Below, one piece after another: positions 50,022-64,000 of a DNA stretch of 64,000 nt. The translations under genes and the position numbers were made by a program. Origin of the DNA: Vreelandella andesensis (GTDB lineage Bacteria; Pseudomonadota; Gammaproteobacteria; Pseudomonadales; Halomonadaceae); NCBI RefSeq assembly GCF_003989795.1, contig NZ_RZHG01000019.1, positions 62,145-126,144 of the forward strand, in the 5' to 3' direction. The first letter of the stretch is position 1; each line of letters starts with the position of its first letter. The notes under the pieces are model-generated. The model had not been told where the DNA came from, did no database searches, and was given only the letters and a program-made list of their open reading frames with translations.

Positions 50022-50460
50022 TTAACCTGACAACACCTTCTGCACATGATGTCTTAGGGAATGGAAGCTTTCATAAGCTGCCAGTAGCAATCACTCTTGC
50101 TTTACCCTGCGCGAGAGAATCTCGATTAGGTTCAATTCTGGTGAATAGAAGGGAAGGGTGATCACATAAACCCGCTGATTCAGCCACTCCCGTCGCTTGC
50201 GCTGAAACAGGGCCGAGCGCTGAATACTGGCGTTGCCCATCACCACGATGGCAAAGGTATCCGGCGATTTGTGGGTAATAAAGTGATCAAAAGCTTCGAT
50301 AACGACCTCGGTGGTGCTGTATCCGTTGTCGAATGGTAAATCAGCTTGCCTTGATCTTCTCAGTGCTGAAGCTCGGTCAACAGGCCGTGGGTATTACGAA
50401 CGTCTGTTTCGTTACGCCGATCATTAAGAGATCGCCGAGCCCGCTTGACGCTGTACCCTG
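50022..50460 (-). pseudogene. Remnant of an IS630-family transposase (internally deleted)
   Basis: The minus strand reads RNETDVRNTHGLLTELQ, TGA (50360-50362), a junction with about 250 bp deleted, then DNGYSTTEVVIEAFDHFITH. After this come FAIVVMGNASIQRSALF, ITLPFYSPELNLIEIL, a second TGA where Trp is expected, and a normal C-terminal end with TAA at 50022-50024. The usual catalytic DN of the DDE_3 domain is GN here. Together these rule out activity. The first part repeats 41557-41664. It abuts the end of the catabolic operon. Confidence 0.8.
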
Positions 50461-50469
50461 GTTTACTAG

Positions 50470-50964
50470 CTAAGATGACTTTTTCCAGCGCAAAATCCGG
50501 TACACATTAGACAATACATCTGCACCCATCATGACGACTCCCGGTAATGAGCCCGCCTGCCAGTTGAATACTAACCAAAGCAGGCTGCCGACTAGCAGGG
50601 CTCCACGCCGTGGCAAGCCAGCAAAAAAGAATACCCCGATGCTTCCCGAAATCACCGCAATTACCGGCAAAATATCCCAGCTACTCTGCCAACTGACCCC
50701 GCCAGTGACGAGGTACAGGCCAATGAAGCCTGAGGCGAACCAGGCGCCGCGAAAGCGCATGCCGACGAGGTTGCGCACCGCCGTGATCAGGTTGAGCAGG
50801 GCCGCCGTCGGCTGTGCCAGGAGTACAAAATGCAGGCTCCACACCAGGCAAGAGCCCGATAGCATCACTAACATGCGCACATCGTGGCGGCACTGAAAGG
50901 CCAGCACGCCGAGCAACGCCGCCACACCGCCGAGCAGCTGTATACCCAGCCACTCAAGGCTCAT
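50470..50964 (-). CDS. YgjV-like inner-membrane protein
   Basis: A 164-residue, very hydrophobic protein with about five to six membrane helices, resembling the YgjV family of unknown function (LGVLAFQCRHDVRMLVMLSGSCLVW, LLNLITAVRNLVGMRF). It is the last gene of the catabolic operon and starts within the stop of the preceding amidohydrolase gene (ATGA overlap), so it is translated with it. Its role there is unclear; transport or resistance to an intermediate are guesses only. An IS630 remnant begins 10 nt after its stop. Confidence 0.7.
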   Translation of the reverse strand: MSLEWLGIQLLGGVAALLGVLAFQCRHDVRMLVMLSGSCLVWSLHFVLLAQPTAALLNLITAVRNLVGMRFRGAWFASGFIGLYLVTGGVSWQSSWDILPVIAVISGSIGVFFFAGLPRRGALLVGSLLWLVFNWQAGSLPGVVMMGADVLSNVYRILRWKKSS

Positions 50965-52481
50965 TCGTCGAACCGTGCTGGGATAGTACCCGGTGCCAAG
51001 GGGAGCGCCTGACAGCGCGACCAGATGCGTTCATAAGCTGGCCTTAACGTTTCGGTCATGCTCTCGGCAGTATCGATGGCCGGTCTCAGCCGCTGCATGG
51101 CCTGCTCTATACGCTGTGATATCTCGCGCTGATCTAGCCGGGTCAGTTGGCCATCGGCGACGACTTGTTCGCCCTCCACCCATACCGAGTGGATACCGCC
51201 ACCGCTCTCTCCAAACACCAGTTGGCGAAGAGGATCATTGAGTGGCGTGAAGGCCGGCGCATCCAGCCGATAGAGTGCTAAGTCGGCGCGTTGACCAGGT
51301 GCAATTCGCCCCAGTTGATCCTCGAGGCCTAGTGCTCGGGCACCGCCAGTGGTGGCGGCTTCCAGCGCTTCCTCGGCGCCAACCCATTGCCGATAGTCAT
51401 CGCCGCGCAGTTTGTGAACCAGCGCTGTGTTGGCCACTACCCTGAGCATATCGGTGGACTCCAGTGAGCCACAGCCGTCGGTTCCCAGGCTCACATTAAC
51501 CCCGGCATCCAGTAGCGCGCGCATGGGCATTAGCCCAGAACCCAGCTTGAGATTGCTATTGGGGTTGTGCTGCACGCTTGCACCGCTGGCAGCAATCCGC
51601 GAGATATCGTCTGGTGTGAGCCACACCGCGTGAATCAGCGAAGTCCCCGGCGCTAGAAATCCAAGGTCATCGAGATGCTGGAACAGCGTTTTGCCCCGCT
51701 CGTGCCATGCGGAGGCTGCTTGTAGACGAGTTTCCTGGACGTGAATAATCACCGGCAAATCCATTCGGTCGGCTATCGCCCTTACCTCTAAAAGCAGGCT
51801 ATCGCTGCAGCGCTGTGGCGCGGAGGGGGCCAGCAGAACGCCGACACGATTATTGCGCGGATGATGCGTCACCGAGAGCGATTCAACTAAGCGCAGGTAG
51901 TCTGTCACTGGGGTCGCCTCGCTAGGCGCTAGGCTTGCTAGCGTCTCGGGACTACACTCTTCGTCAATAAACGGCACGCTCTTGTGGAACGGAACGTCAA
52001 ATAGCGTTGGGCCTAGCAATGCGCGGATGCCGATATCTTCATAAGCGGCAAGCGCTGCTTCAATGTGCTCCTGATTGAGCAGCGGCGAGGCATTGAAGTC
52101 GTCAACAATACAAGTGGTGCCTGATAGCAGCGCCTGGCAGGCGCCCACAAGCGTTCGCAGGTAAACGTCGTCGGCGGTTAACGGCAAAGGCTTTGCGGGC
52201 CGCACGTAGTTCATCCACAGCTCAAGGGGCAAGCGGTCATAGCGCCCCTTGTGGAAATTTTCGTGGGAGTGATGGTGGCCATTGATAAAGCCGGGCATGG
52301 CCAGCGTGCCAGCGACATCTACGACGTCTCCTTCAGGTGAAGCCGTCCCTGTCGGGCGAATTGCTTGAATGATGCCCTCACGAATAACGATATCCATTGG
52401 CGACTTGACGACATGGGTGCCGTCCTCACTGAGTGGCCGGGTACCCACCAGCGTCGTGGTATTGTCAGCGTTCTTAGTCAT
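50961..52481 (-). CDS. Amidohydrolase-superfamily deaminase/hydrolase (ATZ/TRZ-SsnA type)
   Basis: A ~506-residue metal-dependent hydrolase. Metal ligands are visible: INGHHHSHENF (HxH), VIIHVQETR (His plus Glu), LIHAVWL (His) and SLGTDGCGS (Asp). The N-terminal composite beta domain (PMDIVIREGIIQAIRP) is typical of cytosine deaminase/atrazine chlorohydrolase relatives, which deaminate or dechlorinate heterocycles. The start may be ATG 52481 or GTG 52484. A near-perfect hairpin lies just upstream, between tctC and this gene. The substrate is unknown; the operon context suggests an N-heterocycle. It differs from the second amidohydrolase in the same operon. Confidence 0.82.
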   Translation of the reverse strand: MTKNADNTTTLVGTRPLSEDGTHVVKSPMDIVIREGIIQAIRPTGTASPEGDVVDVAGTLAMPGFINGHHHSHENFHKGRYDRLPLELWMNYVRPAKPLPLTADDVYLRTLVGACQALLSGTTCIVDDFNASPLLNQEHIEAALAAYEDIGIRALLGPTLFDVPFHKSVPFIDEECSPETLASLAPSEATPVTDYLRLVESLSVTHHPRNNRVGVLLAPSAPQRCSDSLLLEVRAIADRMDLPVIIHVQETRLQAASAWHERGKTLFQHLDDLGFLAPGTSLIHAVWLTPDDISRIAASGASVQHNPNSNLKLGSGLMPMRALLDAGVNVSLGTDGCGSLESTDMLRVVANTALVHKLRGDDYRQWVGAEEALEAATTGGARALGLEDQLGRIAPGQRADLALYRLDAPAFTPLNDPLRQLVFGESGGGIHSVWVEGEQVVADGQLTRLDQREISQRIEQAMQRLRPAIDTAESMTETLRPAYERIWSRCQALPLAPGTIPARFDE

Positions 52482-52494
52482 CACAAACGGCCAA

Positions 52495-52514
52495 CGGCCC
52501 CATGCATGGGGCCG
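52495..52514. other. Perfect 20-bp intercistronic palindrome after tctC
   Basis: CGGCCCCATGCATGGGGCCG is a perfect palindrome located 28 nt beyond the tctC stop and 13 nt before the next gene on the minus strand. No T-run follows. It is probably an mRNA hairpin that protects the upstream solute-binding-protein transcript from 3' decay or causes partial termination. Confidence 0.6.
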
Positions 52515-52541
52515 CCGACACTCTCCTGTGTTGTGAAAGGT

Positions 52542-53510
52542 CTATTCGCCGAGGTAGGCTTCGCGCAGTGCTGCTTGCTCTGCCGACAGCGCTTCAGCGA
52601 AGGCCTCATGGTCAAGGAATTGTATGCTGGAGCCAATCTGGCCGATTAGGCGAAGGAAGCCTTCATCCTCGGTCAAACGCTGGAAGCCGTCGCTCAGTTC
52701 AGCGATAACGTCGTCCGGCGTGCCTGCCGGTGCCATTACCCCGCGCCAGAACTGGAAGACCACATCGTAGCCCTCTTCCTGGCAGGTGGGGATGTCCCCA
52801 TAGGCCTCGTAGCGTTCGGTATCGGTGACACACAATCCTACGAGGCTACCCGATTCTAGATGTTCACCAACGACGCTGGGGCCACCAGCATAGGCCATGG
52901 TATTGCCCCCCAACAGTTGTGTTACTGCTGGGCCGCCACCGCCTAGCTCTACCCCTCGCATGTCAATATTGGCAGTGGCCTTAAGCATTTCGAACACCGT
53001 ATATGTCCAACCGTTACGGTTGTCGGAACTGTAGACTACCTCGTCAGGGTTTTCCTCAGCGTATTCAACCAGTTCCGTGATGCTCTTAAACGGCTGATCG
53101 GGCGTAGTGACAAAGATGGCTGGGCTGTAGTTGATGCGGGCAACTGGTACGAAGTCATCCATTTCATAGGGCAGGTCTTCCACCTGCGGACGCAGCGAAT
53201 TGATGGTCGGGTCGCCGAACAACAGCATGCTGCCATCGGCAGGGCTGCCGGCGACCTCAGCAGCGGCAACTGCACCGCCGCCGCCACCACGGATTACTGA
53301 GATCAGCGGGCGGCCTAGAAATTCTTCGCCAACCGCAGTAACAATACTGGCATGTAGGGAGTGGGATCCGCCAGCAGGATAGGGAGTAACGAATCGGATC
53401 GGTCCGTCAGGCAGGTAGCTCTCTTCAGCGAAAACCTGGCCGGTGGTAAGGGTGGCAGCAGCTGCGAGTGACGCGGCTAGCACGGTACGGGACAGAATGG
53501 GATGTAACAT
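52542..53510 (-). CDS. TctC-type tripartite tricarboxylate transporter substrate-binding protein
   Basis: Periplasmic binding protein of a TTT transporter, serving carboxylates and other anions. Starting at ATG 53510 it has 322 residues with a clear signal peptide ending QVFAEES. Family features: PDGPIRFVTPYPAGGSHSLHA (usually PYPPGG), SVIRGGGGGAVAAAEVAGSPADGSMLLFG, and ELGGGGPAVTQLLGG near 180-194. An earlier in-frame start at 53561 lies within tctA and precedes the signal peptide, so I reject it. It follows tctA, and the full set tctB-tctA-tctC is present in the operon. Confidence 0.9.
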   Translation of the reverse strand: MLHPILSRTVLAASLAAAATLTTGQVFAEESYLPDGPIRFVTPYPAGGSHSLHASIVTAVGEEFLGRPLISVIRGGGGGAVAAAEVAGSPADGSMLLFGDPTINSLRPQVEDLPYEMDDFVPVARINYSPAIFVTTPDQPFKSITELVEYAEENPDEVVYSSDNRNGWTYTVFEMLKATANIDMRGVELGGGGPAVTQLLGGNTMAYAGGPSVVGEHLESGSLVGLCVTDTERYEAYGDIPTCQEEGYDVVFQFWRGVMAPAGTPDDVIAELSDGFQRLTEDEGFLRLIGQIGSSIQFLDHEAFAEALSAEQAALREAYLGE

Positions 53511-53521
53511 GGTTGTGTGCC

Positions 53522-55060
53522 TCAGGTGTTGTTGGACTCGGGTGGGTGGGACTTGGAGCACTTACGGACGACACCTGCTTTCACCAGACCGCGCCATGCC
53601 ATCGTGAGAATGACCAGCGCCAGCAGGATCAGCAGAATAAGGCTGCCTGGCCGCGACCAGAAGATCGCCAGGCTACCGTTGGAGAACACCAGCGACTGCC
53701 GCACGGCGCTCTCGAAACCCGGCCCCAGCAGCAGGCCGATAATCAGAGGGGCGACAGGAAAGTGGGTACGCCGCATCAAGTAACCCAGGCCACCACCTAC
53801 CACCAGAATCAGTAGGTCGAAGACACTGGAATTAACGGCATAGGCGCCGCATACGCAGAGCAGCAGCACGCAGGGATAGAGCACTGTGGCAGGGATGCGC
53901 GTAACGTGCTTTAGCCAGCGAATCGCCGCTAACCCAAAGATCAGTAGCAGAACGTTGGTGACCAGCAGAACCAGAAACAGTCCGAACAGAAAGCCGGGGT
54001 TTTGTTGAATCAGCAGTGGTCCTGGCATCATCCCTTGCGCCATCAGCGCACCGATCAATACCGCTGTGATGGTGTCGCCGGGAATGCCGAACACGGTCAT
54101 GGGGATCAGCGCTGCGGGCACGACAGCATTGTTACCAGACTCCGCTGCTGCTAAGCCTTCAAGAGACCCCTTGCCGAATTTTTCGGGTTCACGGGAGCGC
54201 TCGCGGGCCACGCCATAGGCAATCCAGCAGGAAATTTCAGCACCGAGACCTGGCAGTGCGCCTAAAAAGGTGCCCAGTGAGGTCGAGCGTAGAATGGTCG
54301 GGCGAAGTGCCCAGAACTCCGACCACTTGAGCCGCTCTCCGCCGTGCTCCACCCCCCCTGGGTCACCGCTCGCTTGCGTGGGTGGATGGGTCAGTTGCAT
54401 GAGAATCTCGCTCAGCGCGAACATGCCGATCAGCAGTGGAATGAGTGAAACGCCGCCTAGCAGGTCGGTAACGCCGAAAGTGAAACGTTGGTAGCCCGAC
54501 ATCGGGTCGAGCCCGATAGACGCCACTAGCAAACCGAGTCCGGCGGCAATCATGCCCTTTAGAAAGCTCTCGCCGCTGACGGTGGCGATCATGGTCAAGG
54601 CAATTAAGTAGAGCAGCGCAAACTCAGGTGAGCCGAAGCGAATGGCAATACTTGCCAGCGGAATGGCCACCACAATCAACACCAGGGTGGCCATGAAGTC
54701 TGCCACTACTGAGCTGTAAAGGCTCAGCTCTAGGGCCTTGCGCGACTTGCCCTGCTGGGTCAGTGCATAGCCGTCGCGGGCGGTGGCCGCTGCCGCCGCC
54801 GTACCTGGGGTATTGACCAGAATGGCCGGTATCGACCCCCCATAGATAGCCCCTTTGTAGATCCCTAGTAGAAAGGGAATACCAATGGTGGCCTCCATAA
54901 AGAAGGTGAAGGGCGCTAGTACCGCTACGGCCATGGTGGCAGTGAGCCCCGGCAAGGCGCCGATCAGAATGCCGCTGGCCAGACCCGCCGACAGCGCCAG
55001 GAAAGTCCAGGGGCTGGCCAGCATGGCAAGCCCCTGCTGCACTACGGCTAGATCCATCAC
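53522..55060 (-). CDS. TctA-type large permease of a tripartite tricarboxylate transporter
   Basis: The 512-residue membrane protein has about twelve helices and the family signatures GILIGALPGLTATMAVAVLAP (about 29-49), YGGSIPAILVNTPGTAAAAATARDGY and LGALPGLGAEISCWIAYG in the second half, reflecting the internal duplication of TctA. It forms the channel with TctB and is energised by ion gradients. ATG 55060 overlaps the tctB stop (ATGA). Confidence 0.92.
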   Translation of the reverse strand: MMDLAVVQQGLAMLASPWTFLALSAGLASGILIGALPGLTATMAVAVLAPFTFFMEATIGIPFLLGIYKGAIYGGSIPAILVNTPGTAAAAATARDGYALTQQGKSRKALELSLYSSVVADFMATLVLIVVAIPLASIAIRFGSPEFALLYLIALTMIATVSGESFLKGMIAAGLGLLVASIGLDPMSGYQRFTFGVTDLLGGVSLIPLLIGMFALSEILMQLTHPPTQASGDPGGVEHGGERLKWSEFWALRPTILRSTSLGTFLGALPGLGAEISCWIAYGVARERSREPEKFGKGSLEGLAAAESGNNAVVPAALIPMTVFGIPGDTITAVLIGALMAQGMMPGPLLIQQNPGFLFGLFLVLLVTNVLLLIFGLAAIRWLKHVTRIPATVLYPCVLLLCVCGAYAVNSSVFDLLILVVGGGLGYLMRRTHFPVAPLIIGLLLGPGFESAVRQSLVFSNGSLAIFWSRPGSLILLILLALVILTMAWRGLVKAGVVRKCSKSHPPESNNT

Positions 55061-55539
55061 AGCAGCATCCCCCTGGGGAAGTAAACCCCCATGGCGCCCT
55101 CGAAAATATGGATCACCAGCGCCGGTGGCACCACTGCCAGTGCCAGGAGCACATACCAGCGGCGTTCACCAAAGCATAGCGCCAGCAAGGGCACGGCTAG
55201 CATGGTCACCAGCCAGATGCCCAGAAAACGAATCGACACCACCATGGCCACCATCAGCGCATAGGCCACCAGCGCCCGGGCGGTATTGCCGCTTTCGAAC
55301 GTTACTGAGAAGCGTGGTCGCCAGGCTGACATCATTAGCACCACGCCAAGCCCCGTGACCAGTAACGCGATCATGCCGGGAAAAAAGGCCGCCGAGCCGA
55401 TATCGCGTGGGTCTCCAAATGGAGGTGGTGTGCCATGCACGATGCGTAGAAAAACCACCCCTACGGCGATTACCGCAAATGCCAACAGCGATTCGATCAG
55501 CCGACTACCTGGCGAGCGCAAGCCAGCGCGCATACTCAT
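55057..55539 (-). CDS. TctB-type small permease of a tripartite tricarboxylate transporter
   Basis: The 160-residue protein has four membrane helices (about 14-33, 50-69, 88-110 and 120-140), as expected for TctB, and little sequence conservation beyond that. ATG 55539 overlaps the stop of the hydratase-like gene, and its own stop overlaps the tctA start. Identification rests on its place directly ahead of tctA and on length and topology. Confidence 0.85.
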   Translation of the reverse strand: MSMRAGLRSPGSRLIESLLAFAVIAVGVVFLRIVHGTPPPFGDPRDIGSAAFFPGMIALLVTGLGVVLMMSAWRPRFSVTFESGNTARALVAYALMVAMVVSIRFLGIWLVTMLAVPLLALCFGERRWYVLLALAVVPPALVIHIFEGAMGVYFPRGMLL

Positions 55540-56324
55540 GTGGGCACCCCGCCTGTCACGACAGCGTCGATTTCAAGCGATACGCTACCGATGTTCTCAA
55601 AGCTAGCTTCAATACGTTGACCTGGGTGCGCTTCGAACATACCCGTCCAAGACCCCATACTGATCACATCACCCTCGACTAACCCCCACCCGGCGTGCTC
55701 AGCATGCATTGCCAACCAGGGAAGCAGCGATACGGGGTCGCCCATCGGGTGTCGCAGCGCCAAGCCTGGTAAAACCTGATCATTGACTCGGACCGACAAT
55801 GCGCTATTTGCAAAATGCGATTGCCAAGGCCCTGCTACCCCTTCCCCAGTGATCAATCGTCCATGCATCTGCAAGTCTGCTAAGAGAAAGGTCCGGGGTA
55901 GCTGTTGCCAGTTGGCGGCCCGTACATCAAAGAGTTCGATGGCCGCCAGTGTTTCTCCTATTGCCAAGGCGGCCTCGCTGCGCCGACATCCGGAGTAAAG
56001 CGGCCGTTTGAGACGGACGGCAAGCTCTACCTCAATGCCGAACAGACTGAAGCAGTCGCTCTCATTTAACCGTGCCGGAGAAGCCATTAAGCAATGGTCA
56101 GGAATCGGTGCCGCTGTTACCGGCGCTACACCAAGCTTCCAAGCACGTGGACGACCTTCGGCCCACCAGCCCATTGTTGCCCCCAGAGCAGCCTGTACGG
56201 CATAGGCATCTGCATCGCTTTGCGGCGTCAGCCGGTGTGCCGTCTCAGGTGTTATTAAGGGGCCACCTCGCCACACGGTCGCGAGTGCTTCGGTAAGCTC
56301 GGTAATAGTCGAATGGCTTACCAT
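55536..56324 (-). CDS. 2-keto-4-pentenoate hydratase-like protein (MhpD/FAH superfamily)
   Basis: A 262-residue member of the fumarylacetoacetase/2-oxopent-4-enoate hydratase superfamily, which binds Mg2+ or Mn2+ and hydrates or decarboxylates 2-keto acids. The metal-binding acids are in FGIEVELAVRL (about 96-106) and in IELFDVR. RAWKLGVAP holds the substrate-contacting lysine region. It is embedded between the hydantoinase and the TTT transporter with overlaps on both sides (7 and 4 nt). In this operon it may act on the open-chain product of ring cleavage, a hypothesis only. Several homologues in similar clusters are uncharacterised. Confidence 0.8.
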   Translation of the reverse strand: MVSHSTITELTEALATVWRGGPLITPETAHRLTPQSDADAYAVQAALGATMGWWAEGRPRAWKLGVAPVTAAPIPDHCLMASPARLNESDCFSLFGIEVELAVRLKRPLYSGCRRSEAALAIGETLAAIELFDVRAANWQQLPRTFLLADLQMHGRLITGEGVAGPWQSHFANSALSVRVNDQVLPGLALRHPMGDPVSLLPWLAMHAEHAGWGLVEGDVISMGSWTGMFEAHPGQRIEASFENIGSVSLEIDAVVTGGVPT

Positions 56325-57763
56325 GTATTACCTCCCGAAGGCTGTGGCTTAGGTCGTGCCGGTTCGGGGAGCGCGCAGGGTAGAAACTCGCCGCGCCCGG
56401 CGCTGCCCAGATAGTTGCCATCGCGCCACACTACTTCGCCACGTGACAGCGTCAGAGCTGGCCAGGCCGTCACCGAGATGTTTTCGTAGGGGGTGTAATC
56501 CACATTGTGATGGAGGTCGCTGTTTCGAATGCGTCGATCCAGACCGGTGTCCCAGATCACTAGGTCCGCGTCTGCGCCTACGGCGATGGAGCCCTTGCGC
56601 GGATAGAGGCCATACATGCGCGCAACATTGGTAGCGGTGAGCGCCACGAACTGCTGCATGGTCAAGCGGCCTGTTTCCACCCCGTGGCTGAATAAGAGGG
56701 CGAGCCGCGTTTCAAGCCCTGGAATGCCGTTGGGAATGCGATCAAAGCTGGCCTCACTGCCGGCCGTGAACTTGCCTTGGGGGCCGGCAAAGGTGAAAGG
56801 GGCATGATCTGAAGAGAAGATCTGGAAGGCGCCGCTCTCCAGGCCATCCCAGACCACCTGTTGATTGGCCTTGTCGCGAGGCGGCGGACTGCAGATGCAC
56901 TTGGCGCCGCGATGATCATTGTCATCGATACCGAGGTCGTCAGCGGTCAAAAACAGATACTGAGGGCAGGTTTCGGCGTAGATACGCAGGCCGTGACTGT
57001 GGGCCCAGCGCAGTTGCTCTATCGCCTCGCGGCCCGAGACATGCACAATCAGAATGGGTACATCGACAAGTTCGGCGTAGGCGATGGCGCGGTGGGTGGC
57101 TTCGCGCTCTACCAGCATTGGCCGCGCCTCGGCGTGGTAGCGGGGCGCTGTATGACCATGAGCGAGCAGTCGCTCGGTAAGCCAGGCGATGCAGTCGGCG
57201 TTCTCGGCGTGCACCATGACCATGGCACCATGCTCACGTGCCACCGCCAGCACGTCGATGATCTCGCGGTCTGACAGCTTCAGGTCGTCATAGGTCATGT
57301 AGATCTTGAACGAGGTGTAGCCCTCGCGGATCAACGCTGGCAGCTCATTTGCCAACACCTCAGGGGTCGCGTCAGTCACGATTAGGTGGAAGGCGTAGTC
57401 GATACACGCCTTGCCTTCTGCTCGCTGATGATAGTCGTCGACTGCAGCGCGTAAGCTCTGGCCTTTTTGTTGGCAGGCGAACGGAAACACAGTGGTGGTC
57501 CCACCGCAGGCTGCCGAACGTGTGCCGCTGAGAAAGTCATCGGCCATCTTTGAACCGTCAGAGGTGGGCTGATCCAGGTGGCAGTGTCCATCGATGCCGC
57601 CCGGCAGTACCCAGCGGCCGGCAGCATCAATCTCCTCAACACCATCGGCAAGGTTGCTACCCAGCGATGCGATGGTACCGTTGCGAATACCAATGTCTGC
57701 GTCGAACACATCGGCAGCGGTGGCGCAGCGCGCCCGCCGAATCACTAAGTCGAATTCAGCCAT
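56318..57763 (-). CDS. Dihydropyrimidinase/hydantoinase-family cyclic amidohydrolase
   Basis: The 481-residue enzyme opens cyclic imide/amide rings (hydantoin, dihydrouracil). All ligands of the binuclear centre are present: His60 and His62 in GGIDGHCHLDQP, carbamylated Lys153 in SFKIYMTYDD, His185 in VHAEN, His241 in VHVSG and Asp319 in SSDHAPF. CSPPPRDK is the usual stereochemistry/substrate-binding loop. It is expected to be active. An N-carbamoyl-amino-acid hydrolase, the usual next step, is not in the window. It overlaps the neighbouring genes by 8 and 7 nt. Confidence 0.92.
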   Translation of the reverse strand: MAEFDLVIRRARCATAADVFDADIGIRNGTIASLGSNLADGVEEIDAAGRWVLPGGIDGHCHLDQPTSDGSKMADDFLSGTRSAACGGTTTVFPFACQQKGQSLRAAVDDYHQRAEGKACIDYAFHLIVTDATPEVLANELPALIREGYTSFKIYMTYDDLKLSDREIIDVLAVAREHGAMVMVHAENADCIAWLTERLLAHGHTAPRYHAEARPMLVEREATHRAIAYAELVDVPILIVHVSGREAIEQLRWAHSHGLRIYAETCPQYLFLTADDLGIDDNDHRGAKCICSPPPRDKANQQVVWDGLESGAFQIFSSDHAPFTFAGPQGKFTAGSEASFDRIPNGIPGLETRLALLFSHGVETGRLTMQQFVALTATNVARMYGLYPRKGSIAVGADADLVIWDTGLDRRIRNSDLHHNVDYTPYENISVTAWPALTLSRGEVVWRDGNYLGSAGRGEFLPCALPEPARPKPQPSGGNTW

Positions 57764-58496
57764 GCGCCATCACTCCTTCCATTAGTTGGCCCCAACCGGG
57801 CACGGGCGTGTCGGTGTGGCCGGTCATGCGTAGCATCTTCCATACCACGGTGGCCGTAGTATCCAGCACCGGCACTCCCAGCTCTGCTTCCCAGGCAGGC
57901 ACCAAGTTGGCCGAACAAAGATTTGTGCAAGCCACCACAATGGCTGGCGCCCCAGCCTTAGCCACACGGCGCACCTGAGCAGTGAGCGTTTCCGCCGTGA
58001 CCTCGGCATAGGCGAAGTTTTCGCTGATACCCAGATGATCCTCGGCAACCACGGCAAACCCTGCATCGCGATAGTTATCGAGAATTCGCTTTTGCACGTC
58101 GTCGGTATAAGGCGTCACCAGTCCGAATTCGCGAAGACCGTAATTGGTGAGGATCTCATTCAGCGCCAGCATCGATGTGGTGGCCGAAATGCCGGTCTCT
58201 TCGCTAATCCTTTGGCACAAAGTGACGTCATGCTCAAATCCTAGCCAGCCAGCCGATGTGCCGCTCCAACCGATCACATCGACCCGAGCGTCGGCCAACA
58301 ATCGGGCTGCCGCCAGCACATGGCTATCATCGAACTGACCTAGCGCTCTGGCGCTGAGCGCGATCTCTGTCACGGTAAAGCGGGAAAAGTGCGCGCTTAC
58401 ACCGGGAACCATCGCCACCATGGCCGAAGTGAGCGGCTCAAGGGCTGTATTAGAAGAGGGCGTGAGAACGCCAAATCGACGGCGGGTGACGGTCAC
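57756..58496 (-). CDS. Asp/Glu racemase superfamily protein (maleate isomerase / arylmalonate decarboxylase-like)
   Basis: Starting at GTG 58496 (AGGAG upstream, GTGA overlap with the DUF3830 gene) it has 246 residues. RRRFGVLTPSSNTALEP at the N-terminus is typical of maleate isomerase/arylmalonate decarboxylase relatives. The first catalytic-cysteine position reads SGTSAGW (residues 78-84): Gly where racemases and maleate isomerases have Cys. The second Cys is kept in VACTN (Cys190). A Gly-Thr-Ser plus single Cys is the arylmalonate-decarboxylase pattern, so a decarboxylase-type activity is possible (inference). A much longer open frame upstream lies inside the DUF3830 gene. Confidence 0.75.
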   Translation of the reverse strand: MTVTRRRFGVLTPSSNTALEPLTSAMVAMVPGVSAHFSRFTVTEIALSARALGQFDDSHVLAAARLLADARVDVIGWSGTSAGWLGFEHDVTLCQRISEETGISATTSMLALNEILTNYGLREFGLVTPYTDDVQKRILDNYRDAGFAVVAEDHLGISENFAYAEVTAETLTAQVRRVAKAGAPAIVVACTNLCSANLVPAWEAELGVPVLDTTATVVWKMLRMTGHTDTPVPGWGQLMEGVMAHG

Positions 58497-58951
58497 AGGG
58501 AGACTCCTGTCATTGGGTGGGTGGTGATGGTCAACGGCTGGGCTCCTTGCCATAGGCAGCGTCGCCCTAGTTCTGGCAGTTGCTCTAGCCCCTCGGTCAG
58601 GCTCATAAAGTGATTGCCGGCGATGGGACCTAACTTGCTGGCGAAGCTGCACGGCCCATAAGCCAGCAGAATCTCTGTTTCGCTGTATCCGCCGGGATAG
58701 AACAACACGTCGCCGGGAGAGGGATAGCGTGTCGGGTTTTCCCAGGGCAAAGCGAAGTCTCTTTCGCCCAAGGGAATCCATACCCCCTCACCGCTCCAGC
58801 GCACGTGCACCAGCTGTGTCTCCCAGGGCAGGAGTGCCAGAAAAGCCGCTGAACTGTGAGGCGCATCGGGGCGGGTCTCGGCCACGAATTCGAGGTCGTG
58901 GGAGATTAGGCGTAGGCGCACGCCTTGCGCGGCTGTCTCAGGTCGACTCAT
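58493..58951 (-). CDS. DUF3830 family protein
   Basis: A 152-residue protein of the DUF3830 family, a small cyclophilin-like beta-barrel of unknown function. Landmarks are SSAAFLALLPWETQLVHVRWSGEGVWIPLG, PSPGDVLFYPGG (about 87-98) and EILLAYGPCSFASKLGPIAGNHF. Members occur next to amidohydrolase, racemase and TTT/TRAP transporter genes in other bacteria, suggesting a shared catabolic role. It overlaps both neighbours by 4 nt, so it is produced in step with the two racemase-like proteins. Confidence 0.75.
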   Translation of the reverse strand: MSRPETAAQGVRLRLISHDLEFVAETRPDAPHSSAAFLALLPWETQLVHVRWSGEGVWIPLGERDFALPWENPTRYPSPGDVLFYPGGYSETEILLAYGPCSFASKLGPIAGNHFMSLTEGLEQLPELGRRCLWQGAQPLTITTHPMTGVSL

Positions 58952-59700
58952 TGCACGACCTCCCTGCCAATCAGCTGAGCCAGTGCTGGCGATAAACCTG
59001 CGGCGCTTTTCGTCGGCGGCGCAGCATAGCTGCCTGCTGTCGCTTTATAAGGACTCAGCCGTGCCAGCAGCTCAGCCTGATGCACGGCACAGCTAACGCC
59101 ATCCACAACGGGCACAGGAATCTGCTTTGCTACACTGCGCGCCAACCCTGCTAGCGGTGCACCGGCAATAATCAACACATCTGCTCCGTCTTCGCGCACG
59201 GCGGCTTCGCACAGTGCCACTAGTTGTTCACCTTTATCCTGCTGAACGCTGCCAATGTTGGGCAGTGGTTCGTCTAAACAGCGAATACCCGCTAGCCGAG
59301 ACGTCATCCCGTAACGGTCAACGGTTTCGCTGTACCAGGCTCGAATACGTCGTGAAATCGCCACGATGCCGATACGCCCACCCAGCATGGCTGCACTCAT
59401 CAGGGCGCTCTCTGTAAGCCCTACCACCGGAATTGGCAGCATTTCACGGGCAGCTTCTAAGCCGGGGTCGCCGAACGCTGCAATAACCGCAGCGTTATGC
59501 CCGGCATAGTGATCCGCAAGCTCATTCAATGTCGCGTAGGCACCGATCGCGGCTTCAGCCCGGGTTTCGATATAGGCCACTCCAAAAGCAGCCGTGCGCA
59601 GGGTCAGTTGTGTATTACTGCTTGCCGAGCGCTTTGCCTCGGCAGCAATCAAATCGGTGACACTTTGAGAGATATTCGGATTAACAATCAGTAACTTCAT
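58948..59700 (-). CDS. Hydantoin/Asp/Glu racemase-like protein lacking both catalytic cysteines
   Basis: A 250-residue protein with the hydantoin racemase fold: LLIVNPNISQSVTDLI at the N-terminus, VIAAFGDPGLEAARE near 72-86, and DVLIIAGAPLAGLA near 174-187. In hydantoin racemases these last two read ACF(G/D)DPGL and LGCAGM with catalytic Cys; here they are Ala75 and Gly180. Cys141, Cys164 and one in GVSCAVHQAE are elsewhere. It is therefore probably not a two-base racemase and may instead be an unrelated lyase or a non-catalytic partner. It ends 4 nt inside the DUF3830 gene. Confidence 0.78.
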   Translation of the reverse strand: MKLLIVNPNISQSVTDLIAAEAKRSASSNTQLTLRTAAFGVAYIETRAEAAIGAYATLNELADHYAGHNAAVIAAFGDPGLEAAREMLPIPVVGLTESALMSAAMLGGRIGIVAISRRIRAWYSETVDRYGMTSRLAGIRCLDEPLPNIGSVQQDKGEQLVALCEAAVREDGADVLIIAGAPLAGLARSVAKQIPVPVVDGVSCAVHQAELLARLSPYKATAGSYAAPPTKSAAGLSPALAQLIGREVVQ

Positions 59701-59718
59701 GTAGGGTTCTCCACCTCA

Positions 59719-61086
59719 TTACACCTGGGCCCGAGCGCGTGCCCAGAGCGCTTCAGCCGCCTGCTGTGCATCGGCCAGCAACGTAGGCGTATCGGCCAGG
59801 CACAGCTCCCCGCCTTCTACGACTACCTGACCATTGCACACCACCATCTCGACATCTCTCCCTTGAGCGGTGTGGACCAAGTTGCCCAGGGCATTAATCA
59901 GCGGCACTAAGTGTGGGCGGCGAAAATCAAACACCACTAAATCAGCGCGTTTGCCGGGAGTTAGCGACCCCAGTTCTTGCTCCAGGCCAAGCGCCTTGGC
60001 GCCGTTAATGGTGGCCATCTTCAGCACATGGTGAGGCTGCCACGTGTCGTTAATCTCACTCTCTTGCACCCGGCCCATGATTAGCGCCCAACGCATGACT
60101 TCCACCATATCGCCGTGCATGTTGTCGGTGCCTAAAGCAAGGTTCGCGCCCGCTGCGCGCAATCGGGTGGTGGGGGCAATCCGCCCACCCGTGGCATTAC
60201 CCCGGGGGATATGGGCAATGTTGGTACCAGTGCGCCCAATGCGCTCAATATCGCTGTCGGTCACGTACATACAGTGGGCGGCGGTAAAGCGCGGTCCTAG
60301 CAACCCCACATCGTCCAGCAGTTCACTTGGCGTCATACCGTCACGCTCTATCACCCGACGGTTCTCTTTAACGCTTTGGGAGAGGTGGCCATTAACGTGA
60401 ATACCCAGCGCATCGCGGGTAGTGGCGACGTTGGCCAATAAGGCGCGGGAGCAGGTGTCAGGGGCATGGGCTGCAAGCTCTACACCTAATCGCCCATCCA
60501 ACTTGCCTTGCCAGCGCTCGTGCAGCGCAATGGCATCATTGAGCGTGCGTTCGCCAATCTCATCGCGATGCTCCCAGACTCCCTCGTGGACTCGGCTGAA
60601 ATCCACATCGTGAATGCGCCCGCAGGTGATCACCCGCATGCCTAGCTCGCCCATGGCGGGCAGCGTCAAGTCCGCATGGACATAACTGTCGTTAATTAGC
60701 GTGGAGCCAAATAGCAGCGCTTCGGCGGCTCCTAACCGCGCTAAGGCAACGGCTTCCTCTTCGCTCACTTCATGACCATGGGGCACACCTGGGGTATAGG
60801 CCGGCGCGAAGCCCATATCTTCAGCGACACCCCGCACCATGCTCAAAATGGTATGGGTATGCACATTGACGAAGCCTGGGGTAATGACGCGGCCGGTTAA
60901 GCTCAAGGTGCGGCGCGCGGGCGGTAATGGCTGTGCCGGATCGTTTGGCCCGACCTCCACTAGGCGACCTTCATGTATCACTAGGCGAGCATTCGGAATT
61001 TCACCCAGCTGTGGATCAACCGTCAGCACACGAGCGCCATAAATAACCAAATCAGCAGGCTGCTGAGCATCGAATGGTTGCGTCAT
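59719..61086 (-). CDS. Amidohydrolase-superfamily deaminase (ATZ/TRZ / 8-oxoguanine-deaminase type)
   Basis: A 455-residue hydrolase with NVHTHTILSMVRG (HxH, about 75-87), IHVNGHLSQSVKENR (His, about 230), FTAAHCMYV (His, about 270) and ALGTDNMHGD (Asp). Such proteins deaminate aminated purines, pyrimidines or s-triazines. Sequence is clearly different from the first amidohydrolase of the operon (50961), so the two probably act at different steps. GGAG lies ahead of ATG 61086. It follows the TRAP permease by 18 nt and precedes the racemase-like gene by 18 nt. Confidence 0.83.
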   Translation of the reverse strand: MTQPFDAQQPADLVIYGARVLTVDPQLGEIPNARLVIHEGRLVEVGPNDPAQPLPPARRTLSLTGRVITPGFVNVHTHTILSMVRGVAEDMGFAPAYTPGVPHGHEVSEEEAVALARLGAAEALLFGSTLINDSYVHADLTLPAMGELGMRVITCGRIHDVDFSRVHEGVWEHRDEIGERTLNDAIALHERWQGKLDGRLGVELAAHAPDTCSRALLANVATTRDALGIHVNGHLSQSVKENRRVIERDGMTPSELLDDVGLLGPRFTAAHCMYVTDSDIERIGRTGTNIAHIPRGNATGGRIAPTTRLRAAGANLALGTDNMHGDMVEVMRWALIMGRVQESEINDTWQPHHVLKMATINGAKALGLEQELGSLTPGKRADLVVFDFRRPHLVPLINALGNLVHTAQGRDVEMVVCNGQVVVEGGELCLADTPTLLADAQQAAEALWARARAQV

Positions 61087-61104
61087 TATCTGCTCCGGTG
61101 AGAT

Positions 61105-62385
61105 TTAATAGCCAAGCGCGCGGGGTAGCGCGGTGACGAGTTGAGGGGCAAAGATGCATAGGGCAAGCACTGCAAACTGGAAGGCCACGAAGGGCAAAGA
61201 TTCTCTAACAAGCTCCATCATGGGTACTTTGGTGATGCCGCTCATGACGAAATAGAGCACACCTACAGGCGGTGTCATCATGCCGACGACTAGGTTGTAC
61301 ATAAACAGAAAGCCGAAGTAGAGCGGGTCAATGCCATAGGTAAGTGCAACAGGGGCAAACAGCGGCACCAGCATGATGTAGGCAGCATTCGATTCAATCA
61401 GCATGCCAACGACAACCAGTAGCGCCATGGTCAACAAAATGAACATCATTGGGTCGCTGGTCAGTTCCTGAATAAAATTAGATAGCATCATCGGCACCAT
61501 CTCGATGGTGAAGACGAACGTTAGAACTGAAGCAAACGCAATCAGCGCACCTACCATGGCTGACGTCACTGCGGCACGGTAGAGACAACCAGGGAGGTCG
61601 GCGATTTTTAGCCGCCGTGTAACGACAAAACCAATTAGCGCTGAATACACTACGGCGATGGCCGCGCCCTCAGTGGCGGTAAAAATACCGCCGACAATGC
61701 CCCCCACGACAATCACGGGCATCATGATAATGACAATGGCACGTCGCGCTTGGTGGGCGACGTTGCAGAGGTTGAAGCGCTCACCGGTCAGCGGGTATCC
61801 ACGTTTCCAGGAAATCCAGCTGGCAATGGCCATAAAGCCCACAGCCAGAAGAATTCCGGGCAGAATGCCCGCCATAAACAGCCCGCCCACCGATACCGAA
61901 GAGCCGGCCATCAGGGCATAGACGATCATCGCGTTGCTAGGAGGAATCACAGGCCCCAAATTGGCCGCCGAGGCAATCAATGCCCCTGAATAGGCATCTG
62001 GGTAATACTTGCGTAGCGATGGCACAAGCGTGCTGCCCATGGCACTAGCGCTGGCTACCGCGGCACCACTGACAGAGGCAAAAATAGTCCCGGAGGTGAT
62101 CGTTACATGGGCTAAACCGCCGTGCATTCGCCCTACCAAGCTGTTCGCAAAAGCAATTAAGCGATCCATAATGCCAGCGCGAACCATCAGCTCTCCGGCC
62201 AACATAAACAGTGGAATGGCCATTAAGGGAAAACTATTAACTGCATGCATCATGCGCTGTGGCATGACCACCAGTTCAAAATCGAGCATCCACAGGCCCG
62301 CTAATGAACCAAACCCAAGTGCGAAGGCCAAGGGCATACCGAAGAAAGCCAGCGCTAGAAATAAGCCAATCGCCACCCATGTCAT
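61105..62385 (-). CDS. dctM: TRAP transporter large permease (DctM)
   Basis: With ATG 62385 (ATGA overlap with dctQ) the product is 426 residues and about twelve helices long. It has PLFMLAGELMVRAGIMDRL and SGAAVASASAMGSTLVPSL, both DctM signatures, and IPPSNAMIVYALMAGSSVSVGGLFMAGILPGIL. DctM is the ion-coupled channel of TRAP systems, often Na+-driven in marine bacteria. A frame open to 62541 is only overlap with dctQ. Substrates of this TRAP are unknown. Confidence 0.93.
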   Translation of the reverse strand: MTWVAIGLFLALAFFGMPLAFALGFGSLAGLWMLDFELVVMPQRMMHAVNSFPLMAIPLFMLAGELMVRAGIMDRLIAFANSLVGRMHGGLAHVTITSGTIFASVSGAAVASASAMGSTLVPSLRKYYPDAYSGALIASAANLGPVIPPSNAMIVYALMAGSSVSVGGLFMAGILPGILLAVGFMAIASWISWKRGYPLTGERFNLCNVAHQARRAIVIIMMPVIVVGGIVGGIFTATEGAAIAVVYSALIGFVVTRRLKIADLPGCLYRAAVTSAMVGALIAFASVLTFVFTIEMVPMMLSNFIQELTSDPMMFILLTMALLVVVGMLIESNAAYIMLVPLFAPVALTYGIDPLYFGFLFMYNLVVGMMTPPVGVLYFVMSGITKVPMMELVRESLPFVAFQFAVLALCIFAPQLVTALPRALGY

Positions 62386-62951
62386 GACAGACCCTCCCAC
62401 GTGCGCGAACCACCCCATGCCAATAGCGCCAAATGTAAAAAAGCGTGGGCGCCGCAAATTAGAACAGCGATGTAATAGATGGCGGAGGTCACAGGCAGTG
62501 TCGGCATGAGTTCTGGCCAGCGGTCTACTGTCGCGACCCACGCGCCGACCATTACCATCAGCATGAGAAGCGTGGAAACGCCGGCCATAAGGCGAAAGAG
62601 AACCTCCTTCAACCAGTCAGGCACCATCATCACGAACAGATCAATACCCACATGCACCCCGTGTTTCACGCCATGGGGAATAGCCAAAAAAATCGCCCAC
62701 ACGAAGCACAAGCGCGACAGCTCATCAGCAGCGTCAATGGAGGAGCCAAGCACATAGCGCCAGAACACTTGAAGCGCGACGATGATGACCATTAGCGCCA
62801 TAACAACAACAATGCCCCAGTAGGTCACGACATCTAAGCGTTCAATGACCCATTTAACACGTTGAAAAACAGCGCCAAAATGCGGGGGCTCAGGCCCCCG
62901 CTTAGTGTCATCTTGAGGTGATGTAGAGGTAGGTGTCATGGCTGGTCTCAC
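62382..62951 (-). CDS. dctQ: TRAP transporter small permease (DctQ)
   Basis: A 189-residue membrane protein with four helices (about 40-60, 75-97, 112-135 and 155-178) and the DctQ motif WRYVLGSSIDAADELSRLCFVWAIFLAI. An N-terminal cytoplasmic tail of about 35 residues precedes the first helix. It starts at GTG 62951, overlapping the dctP stop (GTGA); an internal ATG at 62939 is an alternative. It ends within the dctM start. Confidence 0.88.
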   Translation of the reverse strand: MRPAMTPTSTSPQDDTKRGPEPPHFGAVFQRVKWVIERLDVVTYWGIVVVMALMVIIVALQVFWRYVLGSSIDAADELSRLCFVWAIFLAIPHGVKHGVHVGIDLFVMMVPDWLKEVLFRLMAGVSTLLMLMVMVGAWVATVDRWPELMPTLPVTSAIYYIAVLICGAHAFLHLALLAWGGSRTWEGLS

Positions 62952-63949
62952 AGTGCTGCTTCAGCTTCCTGGGCAACCAACTCAATGAACGCAGGGTCTA
63001 TACGCTCTTTGAGGCTTTCAGAGACTTCCAGCGTAGCTTCACGTAATTCGGCCCGTAATTCGGAAGAAATCGGAGTGAACTCCATGCCGTCAGCAATTAA
63101 TTGATCACGCCACTGTTCTTCTTCAGCGGCGGCGGCTTCACGCTGCCACATCATCGCGTCTGCCATGGCAGCGTCAATGATGGTGCGGTGCTCTTCTGAA
63201 AGACGTTCATAGCTGCGCTGGTTTGCAACGGCATTGATAAAGTCATAGAAGTGGCCGCTGTCAGATAAGTACTCCTGCACTTCATTGAAGCGACGGCTGG
63301 CGATGATGTTGTAAGGGTTTTCCTGGCCGTCGAGTACATTCTGCTGCAGTGCTGAATAGAGTTCGGACACATCCATAGATACAGGATTGGCACCCAATGC
63401 GCGGAAGGTCTGCAGATGAACTTCATTGGGCTGCAAGCGAATTCGCATGCCTGAAAAATCTTCAACGGAGGTAATTGGGCGCAAGCTGTTTGTTACATGT
63501 CGGAAGCCAAGCTCGCCATAACCGAGGTTAACGAACCCAAGCGCTTCCATTTTTTCGTCCAACTGCTCGCCAACAGGGCCATCCATAACGGCAAAGGCCT
63601 GTTCACGGTTATCAAACAAGAAAGGCAAGCTCACCGCTTCATATTCAGGTATTGAGCGGGTGAAATAAGCAATCGAGGTGAACACAGCGAAAATAGTGCC
63701 AGAGCGCACTTGGTCAACGTTCTCTGTGGCTCCCCCTAGCTGCATGGCGGGAAACAGGTCAATTTGAATCTCGCCGTTAGACTCGCTTTCTACCTGCTGT
63801 TTGAATATCTCCATTGCGCGAGAAACAGAGTGATCGGTTGGGAAGTTACCCGCGACACGCAGTCGTTCAGCCGCCTGTAACGATGAGGAAAAGAGGGTGG
63901 CGGCTGTCAGCAGAGACGCCAGCTTTACAACGTTAGCTTTAGAGATCAT
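62948..63949 (-). CDS. dctP: TRAP transporter solute-binding protein (DctP)
   Basis: A periplasmic binding protein of the TRAP family, 333 residues from ATG 63949 (GGAG upstream; an ATG 12 bases earlier is in frame but its site is worse). The signal peptide ends near SSLQAAERL. The family signature region has ELGFRHVTNSLRPITSVEDFSGMRIRLQPNEVHLQTFRALGANPVSMDVSELYSALQQNVLDGQENP, which includes the carboxylate-binding Arg in RIRLQ. It therefore most likely binds a carboxylic acid. It is the first gene of the operon in this window; its promoter lies at or beyond the right edge. Confidence 0.93.
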   Translation of the reverse strand: MISKANVVKLASLLTAATLFSSSLQAAERLRVAGNFPTDHSVSRAMEIFKQQVESESNGEIQIDLFPAMQLGGATENVDQVRSGTIFAVFTSIAYFTRSIPEYEAVSLPFLFDNREQAFAVMDGPVGEQLDEKMEALGFVNLGYGELGFRHVTNSLRPITSVEDFSGMRIRLQPNEVHLQTFRALGANPVSMDVSELYSALQQNVLDGQENPYNIIASRRFNEVQEYLSDSGHFYDFINAVANQRSYERLSEEHRTIIDAAMADAMMWQREAAAAEEEQWRDQLIADGMEFTPISSELRAELREATLEVSESLKERIDPAFIELVAQEAEAAL

Positions 63950-64000
63950 GAGAGGCTCCATCAGTTTCGTAACATCGTTATCGTCTGCTCACGCATGCGA

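Follow-up and report, generated by a model that had tools for sequence, protein, structure and literature searches.

Within the window analysed here, i.e. the whole 64,000-nucleotide stretch of Vreelandella andesensis DNA (C11:62145-126144 of a 3.9-Mb draft genome, on a contig that runs on past the right edge), 14 genes on the minus strand span positions 50470-63949, starting with dctP (63949) and ending with a YgjV-like gene (50470). On balance, this operon seems to be a catabolic unit, probably substrate-inducible and horizontally acquired, for an anionic (carboxylated) cyclic ureide, either a hydantoin or a dihydropyrimidine whose ring bears an acidic side chain, or else an amino-substituted compound that leads to one. 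Tripartite ATP-independent periplasmic (TRAP) and tripartite tricarboxylate transporter (TTT) systems are both types known for carboxylate import, and in the proposed pathway they would import the acid and related compounds, after which the two amidohydrolases (Amh1 and Amh2) would probably deaminate the ring and the hydantoinase (Hyd) would open it to a ureido acid. The product would then be decarboxylated or isomerised by the single-cysteine protein Amd, while the racemase-like protein Rac1 most likely acts on this kind of substrate by another reaction, because the known two-cysteine racemisation is impossible in Rac1 while the fold and clade-specific residues are kept. Where present, the fumarylacetoacetase-type protein (Faah) would finish the carbon skeleton, and a divergent GntR/FCD regulator is expected to control the unit.

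A preliminary description of this DNA had the operon import and degrade a carboxylated N-heterocycle. The single catabolic operon holds, with a carboxylated cyclic ureide as plausible substrate (given the metal ligands and polar gate of Hyd and the transporter types), its ring being that of either a pyrimidine or a hydantoin.

Distribution of the module

The genes for Hyd, Amd and Rac1 form a core that recurs in Proteobacteria. A rac1 profile run against 84,980 species genomes gave at least 440 confirmed relatives among the matches listed (599 pattern matches), of which 80 loci were kept. These were picked by patterns containing the cysteine-free motifs discussed below, which makes the absence of cysteines in them a matter of construction. 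For 52 of the 80 loci about 10 kb was available on both sides, and neighbouring genes were called by a codon-position-weighted run plus tblastn, gene presence being scored by tblastn at identity thresholds of 25-50% depending on the gene. In these 52 full-flank loci, hyd was present in 50, gntR in 44 (at a 30% identity threshold, lenient given the size of this family), amd in 43, dctP in 22, amh1 in 15, faah in 10, tctA in 5 and DUF3830 in 3. The three core genes occurred together in 42 of the 52, and a single locus (L126) had neither hyd nor amd. On plasmids, the core is accompanied by ABC transporters in Klebsiella and Methylobacterium, by transporters of the major facilitator superfamily (MFS) in Diaphorobacter and Arthrobacter (the latter with a hydantoinase merely 30% identical to Hyd), and by TRAP genes in Defluviimonas. 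In Paraburkholderia the core is on two plasmid records; one of them carries amd, hyd, rac1 and DUF3830 consecutively along with an MFS gene, and the second lacks annotation. The link between the three genes, with exchangeable transporters around them, is thus strong, without being absolute.

Closer to the window, a rac1 orthologue of at least 82% identity was found in 6 of the 97 nearest-relative genomes (61 of them of the same genus; its own genome is included in both counts). The same gene set was also found when searched for elsewhere, as the preliminary description had proposed: five other genomes of the genus keep the operon order with small variations (DUF3830 in one of the five, faah in one, ygjV in two), so that the gene set is not a product of chance. 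Named carriers in the Halomonadaceae are Vreelandella hamiltonii, Halomonas sp. HyVt-328, V. neptunia HM116, Halomonas sp. A40-4 and Halomonas socia CKY01. The combination of a TRAP and a TTT system in one operon, earlier singled out as unusual, is real and maintained, the two sets occurring together in at least seven Halomonadaceae genomes, that of the window included. A related module in another genome (G376, L039 2108-6222) has its dctP match in two pieces about 1.3 kb apart and no detectable amd; it is perhaps a decaying copy.

With regard to origin, the guanine-cytosine (GC) content of the operon is 57.7%, compared to 50.7% for the rest of the window. The operon was probably gained by horizontal transfer, and its GC content would fit a source relative with higher GC, without being proof of it.

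No description of the hyd/amd/rac1 module was found in the literature searched, most subscription journals being outside that search. What is new here comprises the regulator and its site, the recurring core with swapped transporters, the corrected cysteine assignment, the clade of racemase-like proteins without the cysteines and the polar gate of the hydantoinase. A recurring module with exchangeable transporters points to a common route for the use of a nitrogen-rich ring compound by bacteria of soil and sea. Its enzymes would be candidates for biocatalysis of hydantoins where the substrates are acidic, and it gives DUF3830 a testable context.

The hydantoinase

Hyd (56318-57763, minus strand) belongs to the D-hydantoinase/dihydropyrimidinase family, scoring 792 bits against a cut-off of 647 for PRK13404 and 546 against 393 for TIGR02033, and it is the sole such gene in the genome at E 1e-20. 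Its binuclear metal site is intact: among 65 module hydantoinases, the predicted ligands H60, H62, K153, H185 and H241 are present in all 65, and D319 in 64 (with one row gapped).

The substrate gate is where Hyd differs. In D-hydantoinases, M63, L65, F152 and F159 are given as the hydrophobic gate or pocket residues in the accessible part of PMC7175128. Q65, T67 and Y155 of Hyd align with M63, L65 and F152, and K162 aligns with F159 in 4kqn, 1yny and 4kir, and with a leucine in 3sfw. The hydrophobic pocket that marks aryl/alkyl-type D-hydantoinases is accordingly absent from Hyd. Q65, Y155 and K162 are identical in all 65 module hydantoinases, and in the plasmid and genus set, distant rows included, Q65 is found in 22 of 23 and Y155 in 18 of 23. 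The polar residues in or beside the gate hint at an anionic ring substituent on the substrate.

A racemase-like protein without catalytic cysteines

Rac1 (58948-59700, minus strand) is a member of the Asp/Glu/hydantoin racemase superfamily (PF01177, E 8e-42; 143.8 bits against a cut-off of 31), and it aligns over nearly its full length to the allantoin racemases 3qvj (E 7e-30) and 5lfd (E 2e-28), with Ala75 and Gly180 at the catalytic cysteine sites. These sites, Cys79 and Cys184, are catalytic in the Klebsiella enzyme and described as conserved across the superfamily (PMC12661438, available in part). The cysteine pair that defines hydantoin/allantoin racemases is therefore missing from Rac1. 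HpxA (3qvj) has both cysteines, whereas the Pseudomonas fluorescens enzyme (5lfd) has a glycine at the first site and a cysteine at the second; because of this, loss of the first cysteine alone is not new. Rac1 has neither. The preliminary description spoke of two cysteine-deficient racemase-family proteins, which has to be corrected: only Rac1 is without both, while the protein encoded at 57756-58496 (Amd) keeps one, aligned with Cys188 of arylmalonate decarboxylase (AMDase). Misalignment of Rac1 is controlled for internally, since the genome also encodes, on another contig, a canonical two-cysteine relative beside a canonical PuuE.

The unselected evidence on cysteine loss comes from the plasmid and genus set, for which the fetched records among 344 plasmid records with a rac1 match were checked. 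Both cysteines are absent from all 14 fetched plasmid and genus relatives with at least 48% identity to Rac1. They are also absent from the plasmid rows L139 (43% identity) and L142 (46%), and present in the distant plasmid rows L140, L141, L143 and L144 (38-43%), as well as in the two-cysteine group, in all of its 19 rows. One in four of the pattern-selected orthologues went into the tree and the comparison of residues. A clade of 37 rows (20 of them pattern-selected, 17 not) was chosen by the motifs AFGDP and GAPL, by which residues 75-79 and 180-183 are fixed by choice. Outside these motifs, 15 positions are invariant or nearly so in the clade and rare (< 20%) in the 19 two-cysteine rows, being A37, Y43, R47, E49, G107, W122 and G185 (37 of 37) and S11, Y123, A137, L163, D174, V175, A179 and L236 (36 of 37). 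Y43, R47, W122 and Y123 set the cysteine-free clade apart. Cysteine columns reach at most 21 of the 37 rows. In the tree, all 19 two-cysteine rows lie on one side (99/97); one origin of the cysteine loss is unsupported, because the cysteine-free label needs two changes and the tree comes with a long-branch warning.

Rac1 is under strong purifying selection among its close orthologues, with ratios of nonsynonymous to synonymous substitution (dN/dS) of 0.049, 0.064, 0.039 and 0.074 against four Halomonadaceae orthologues (rough values for the two with dS near 2). The literature searched contained no report of a hydantoin racemase lacking a catalytic cysteine. It is conceivable, though we would give the idea little weight as yet, that Rac1 represents a widespread class of enzymes that have the allantoin-racemase fold but no catalytic cysteines, a new active site having replaced two-cysteine proton transfer. 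Its substrate could be the ureido acid that Hyd produces, from which it might, for example, split off urea. Candidates for such an active site are Y43, R47, E49, W122, Y123 and the AGAPL stretch. If true, urea release by Rac1 would account for the modules rarely carrying a HyuC/AllC carbamoylase.

Two further racemase-like groups were encountered. In the genus relatives L016, L040 and L041, a cysteine-free group (motifs VAISLDTA and LAGASMTG, about 35% identical to Rac1) is located close to TRAP genes and to the gntR and amd of the module, with a hydantoinase 76-78% identical to Hyd where the stretch reaches. In L078 (5341), L080 (3150) and L083 (6116), a variant with the motifs GVSIDTG and LCGAVLAG has its cysteine shifted by one position and adjoins a PuuE-like gene; the one that was scored (L080) is below the PuuE cut-off.

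The single-cysteine protein Amd

Amd (57756-58496, minus strand; 246 aa from a GTG start; PF17645 at 1e-21 for the longer open reading frame) is an AMDase/EutA-like member of the Asp/Glu racemase superfamily. The arylmalonate decarboxylase pattern of G74 with C188 and the dioxyanion residues T75, S76 and Y126 is reproduced in Amd, where G79, C190 and Y130 are conserved in all 57 rows compared, T80 in 56 and S81 in 48 (the others having 8 Ala and 1 Lys). The full set of 12 AMDase criteria in Table 4 of PMC4996985 (a source available in part) is not matched: P13 and S14 of Amd stand at P14 and P15, T191 at G189, and N160 and Y163 at V156 and M159, as placed by eye on the PDB alignment in a comparison that leaves out L40, V43 and Y48. 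Towards EutA (TIGR02990) the longer reading frame scores 86.4 bits against a cut-off of 318. Amd can also be aligned with maleate isomerases, and it contains a PSSNT motif, which is typical of those enzymes. Amd is a single-cysteine superfamily member of uncertain reaction, for which decarboxylation is a fair guess. The literature searched contained nothing that joins arylmalonate decarboxylase with a hydantoinase operon, or that treats AMDase together with maleate isomerase and the cysteines of the superfamily.

Amidohydrolases, DUF3830 and the fate of the ureido acid

Amh1 (59719-61086) and Amh2 (50961-52484), both on the minus strand, are amidohydrolases of the ATZ/TRZ type (a deaminase family), matching PF01979 at 4e-50 and 2e-55, respectively, and a relative 52% identical to Amh1 is encoded beside hyd and amd in Azospirillum. 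Faah (55536-56324, minus strand) resembles 2-keto-4-pentenoate hydratases through its fumarylacetoacetase C-terminal domain (PF01557, 8e-8) and scores below the NCBIfam cut-offs.

The DUF3830 protein (58493-58951, minus strand; PF12903, 4e-29) has a weak profile match to 3kop (E 8e-5) as its only structural lead, structure prediction from seven sequences having given a predicted local distance difference test score (pLDDT) of 49. No description of DUF3830 was found in the literature searched. At two other loci (L008 12001-13938 and L052 7512-9411) a DUF3830 gene directly follows a hydantoinase gene in a different setting, i.e. with genes for an amino-acid ABC transporter, a DapA-like protein and an FAD-oxidoreductase, which suggests that the role of DUF3830 is tied to the hydantoinase rather than to this operon.

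A HyuC/AllC-type carbamoylase is encoded neither in the operon nor, over cut-off, anywhere in the genome. The preliminary description had placed one possibly beyond the right edge; a carbamoylase beside the operon was rejected as a candidate, the genes that follow the regulator there looking like a type I restriction-modification set. Judged with one reference protein, HyuC/AllC is present in 1 of the 52 full-flank loci and in 3 of all 80, while an amidase of two tested types occurs in 11 of the 52. An AguB-like reference had matches in none of the 80 loci, which is a weak test for D-carbamoylase. Elsewhere, the genome has six nitrilase-family and three amidase-family genes. Of the four nitrilase-family genes scanned, none was named D-carbamoylase at E 1e-60: one was nearest to N-carbamoylputrescine amidase (below the cut-off of that model), one exceeded the cut-off of an amidohydrolase model and two gave nothing at this threshold. 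All three amidases were scanned, and one is GatA. The ureido acid is either used by an unlinked enzyme (possibly a nitrilase-type carbamoylase elsewhere in the genome) or processed by Rac1 or Amd.

Regulation and sequence beyond the window

That a regulator might lie past the right edge was foreseen in the preliminary description, and extending the sequence beyond position 64000 indeed revealed, by domain search, a GntR/FCD regulator gene directly upstream of dctP on the opposite strand (approximately C11:126453 to 127136). Between the two genes lies the palindrome AATTGTATGCAATT (C11:126283-126296), which has one exact match in the genome and, genome-wide, one further site at one mismatch. 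The form ATTGTANNCAAT occurs at the same place in the aligned operons L054, L055, L056, L057 and L059, and a weaker form in L120. ATTGTATGCAAT is a candidate GntR site between the regulator and dctP. Right after the regulator, apparent type I restriction-modification genes, as read from their translations, enclose an ATPase/RloB-like pair (L003 3489-12094).

Operon architecture

The 14 minus-strand genes and their order, dctP-dctQ-dctM, amh1, rac1, DUF3830, amd, hyd, faah, tctB-tctA-tctC, amh2 and the YgjV-like gene, are as first described, with open frames throughout and every product scoring over the Pfam cut-off for its stated family. Both importers are complete, all three components of each being encoded. 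The TRAP system consists of the solute-binding protein DctP (62948-63949; 333 aa from the ATG at 63949; PF03480 at 7e-83 for the frame from 63961, and TIGR00787 above cut-off), the small permease DctQ (62382-62951; PF04290, 5e-24) and the large permease DctM (61105-62385; PF06808, 5e-102; its start is uncertain, being either 62385 or 62418). The TTT system consists of the small permease TctB (55057-55539; PF07331, 7e-12), the large permease TctA (53522-55060; PF01970, 4e-143) and the solute-binding protein TctC (52542-53510; PF03401 at 4e-33 for the longer frame). The last gene encodes a YgjV-like inner membrane protein (50470-50964; PF10688, 1e-35), accessory and found in only some related operons.

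Most junctions had been described as overlaps of 4-8 nt, which stands for 9 of the 13 (dctP/dctQ, dctQ/dctM, rac1/DUF3830, DUF3830/amd, amd/hyd, hyd/faah, faah/tctB, tctB/tctA and amh2/ygjV) when likely start codons are used, and fails for the remaining four, where the genes are separated by 11, 18, 18 and 57 nt. The likely starts used are 63949 for dctP, 62385 for dctM, 58496 for amd, 53510 for tctC and 52484 for amh2, of which those of dctM and tctC were picked among several candidates; the longest reading frames would give overlaps of 160 and 40 nt at these two junctions. For amd, the mechanical frame (start 58781) is too long, and the GTG start at 58496, preceded by AGGAG, results in a 4-nt overlap with DUF3830.

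Scans of the region for promoter and terminator consensus sequences gave no excess over shuffles (4 versus 6.8 and 13 versus 13.5, respectively). The gap between tctC and amh2 contains a hairpin (52490-52519, minus strand), with a raw folding energy of the gap of -28 to -37 kcal/mol in all seven distinct operons examined (window, L034-L038 and L057). Its position is kept in the related operons and its sequence is not, about three different sequences being found, as if structure were kept over sequence. It is a putative mRNA-stability element for the binding-protein gene. As a class, terminator-like sites are at chance level in the region. A broken transposase fragment (approximately 50025-50393, minus strand; PF13358/DDE_3, 6e-10 for the open part) adjoins the operon end.

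Weighing the explanations

Several observations weigh against a substrate-inducible, horizontally acquired pathway for an anionic cyclic ureide. Deamination by the amidohydrolases is a guess from family membership, Amh1 and Amh2 both scoring below all NCBIfam equivalog cut-offs among the models shown (for Amh1, 25 of 55 models in one scan and 24 in a second), and the fate of the ureido acid is unexplained because the genome has no HyuC/AllC carbamoylase over cut-off. Faah and DUF3830, each in only one of the five related operons of the genus, are perhaps not essential steps. K162 is one position off F159 in the alignment with 1k1d and is present in just 16 of the 23 plasmid and genus hydantoinases, and the dN/dS of Rac1 reaches 0.19 when taken with the distant L086, being undefined for L120. 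Nor is the core absolute: of 16 plasmid loci retrieved through matches to hyd, amd, rac1 or DUF3830, only 7 have rac1, amd and hyd together. In two Azospirillum loci and in Paracoccus, amd and hyd are present and rac1 is missing. Neither hyd nor rac1 accompanies amd in Sinorhizobium meliloti HM006 and Burkholderia glumae, nor in Rhizobium johnstonii, which also has DUF3830 and a relative of amh2. Two other loci pair hyd with DUF3830 but lack both amd and rac1, and one has DUF3830 alone. With respect to transfer, a higher operon GC may have other causes too, and in the five relatives the GC contents of operon (54.8-57.4%) and flanks (54.0-58.5%) are alike. Finally, a 12-base palindrome of this form, with one mismatch allowed, is expected 0.29 times per 20 kb and was seen in 52 of 200 shuffles; because the bare one-mismatch pattern is not rare, the weight of the palindrome lies in its exact match, place and conservation.

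A side pathway for purine ureides, in which an allantoin relative would be opened and the products feed glyoxylate metabolism, is a rather doubtful alternative. Genes for AllA, AllE or Gcl (glyoxylate carboligase) are within the same 20 kb in 9 of the 52 full-flank loci, which suits a product near glyoxylate, but all nine are Halomonas or Billgrantia and may reflect one ancestral adjacency. Of the proteins with solved structures, allantoin racemases are the nearest to Rac1, and aminotransferase-like and reductase-like genes resembling glyoxylate/tartronate-semialdehyde enzymes occur in 3 of the 52 loci each (all below cut-offs). However, most of the nine regions, as well as the genome of the window on its other contig, have a separate canonical two-cysteine racemase beside a canonical PuuE, by which allantoin is already served, and the window operon is not near purine genes of the AllA/AllE/Gcl type. 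It is similarly unlikely that Rac1 is a pseudoenzyme or structural partner without catalysis, the rest being an ordinary hydantoin pathway. In its favour, Rac1 has lost the two catalytic cysteines, and their replacement by serine in the related enzyme OpaE left at most 0.3% activity in C199S and in the double mutant, and 4.8% in C90S (PMC12661438, in the part available). The 15 conserved clade positions (including Y43, R47, E49 and W122) and the purifying selection speak against it, yet neither bars a non-catalytic role.

The other two alternatives concern Amd in particular. The operon could serve cyclic imides or maleimide-like compounds, with the hydantoinase as imidase and Amd as maleate isomerase, in line with the PSSNT motif and alignment of Amd and with imidases sharing the cyclic amidohydrolase family with hydantoinases, as stated in a source available in part. 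It is distinctly improbable, however, with a glycine (Gly79, 57 of 57) where maleate isomerases have their first cysteine, and with no half-amidase gene in the operon. Least credible, to the point of being nearly dismissed, is that the operon breaks down ectoine, hydroxyectoine or a tetrahydropyrimidine akin to them, in which case Amd would serve as EutA. EutA is the best NCBIfam score of Amd (86 bits), and genes for ectoine catabolism are accompanied by a GntR regulator and by uptake systems of the TRAP or ABC type (PMC5924519, in part), but this score is far under the 318-bit cut-off, no other ectoine-catabolism family is among the top family matches of the 14 genes, and the accessible part of that paper mentions no hydantoinase with ectoine genes.

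Comparison with known systems

The carboxylated cyclic ureide operon proposed here can be set beside three known systems, each taken from sources that were accessible in part. The hyu clusters (PMC3546935) combine a hydantoinase, a carbamoylase and sometimes a hydantoin racemase. The V. andesensis operon is alike in having a TIGR02033-family hydantoinase with a racemase-family neighbour, whereas it has no linked carbamoylase, its racemase-family neighbour is cysteine-free, and Amd, two amidohydrolases and the TRAP and TTT systems are added. Ectoine and hydroxyectoine operons (PMC5924519) share TRAP import, a GntR regulator and an EutA-like protein with it, but differ from it in that the present operon has a hydantoinase and ATZ/TRZ proteins, with no other ectoine-catabolism family seen. 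The neighbourhoods of arylmalonate decarboxylases (PMC4996985) resemble it in the single cysteine, with a glycine in place of the second one, and in the TTT, TRAP or ABC transporters that adjoin; the neighbours named there are of the mandelate-racemase/muconate-lactonising type, whereas Amd is encoded beside a hydantoinase.

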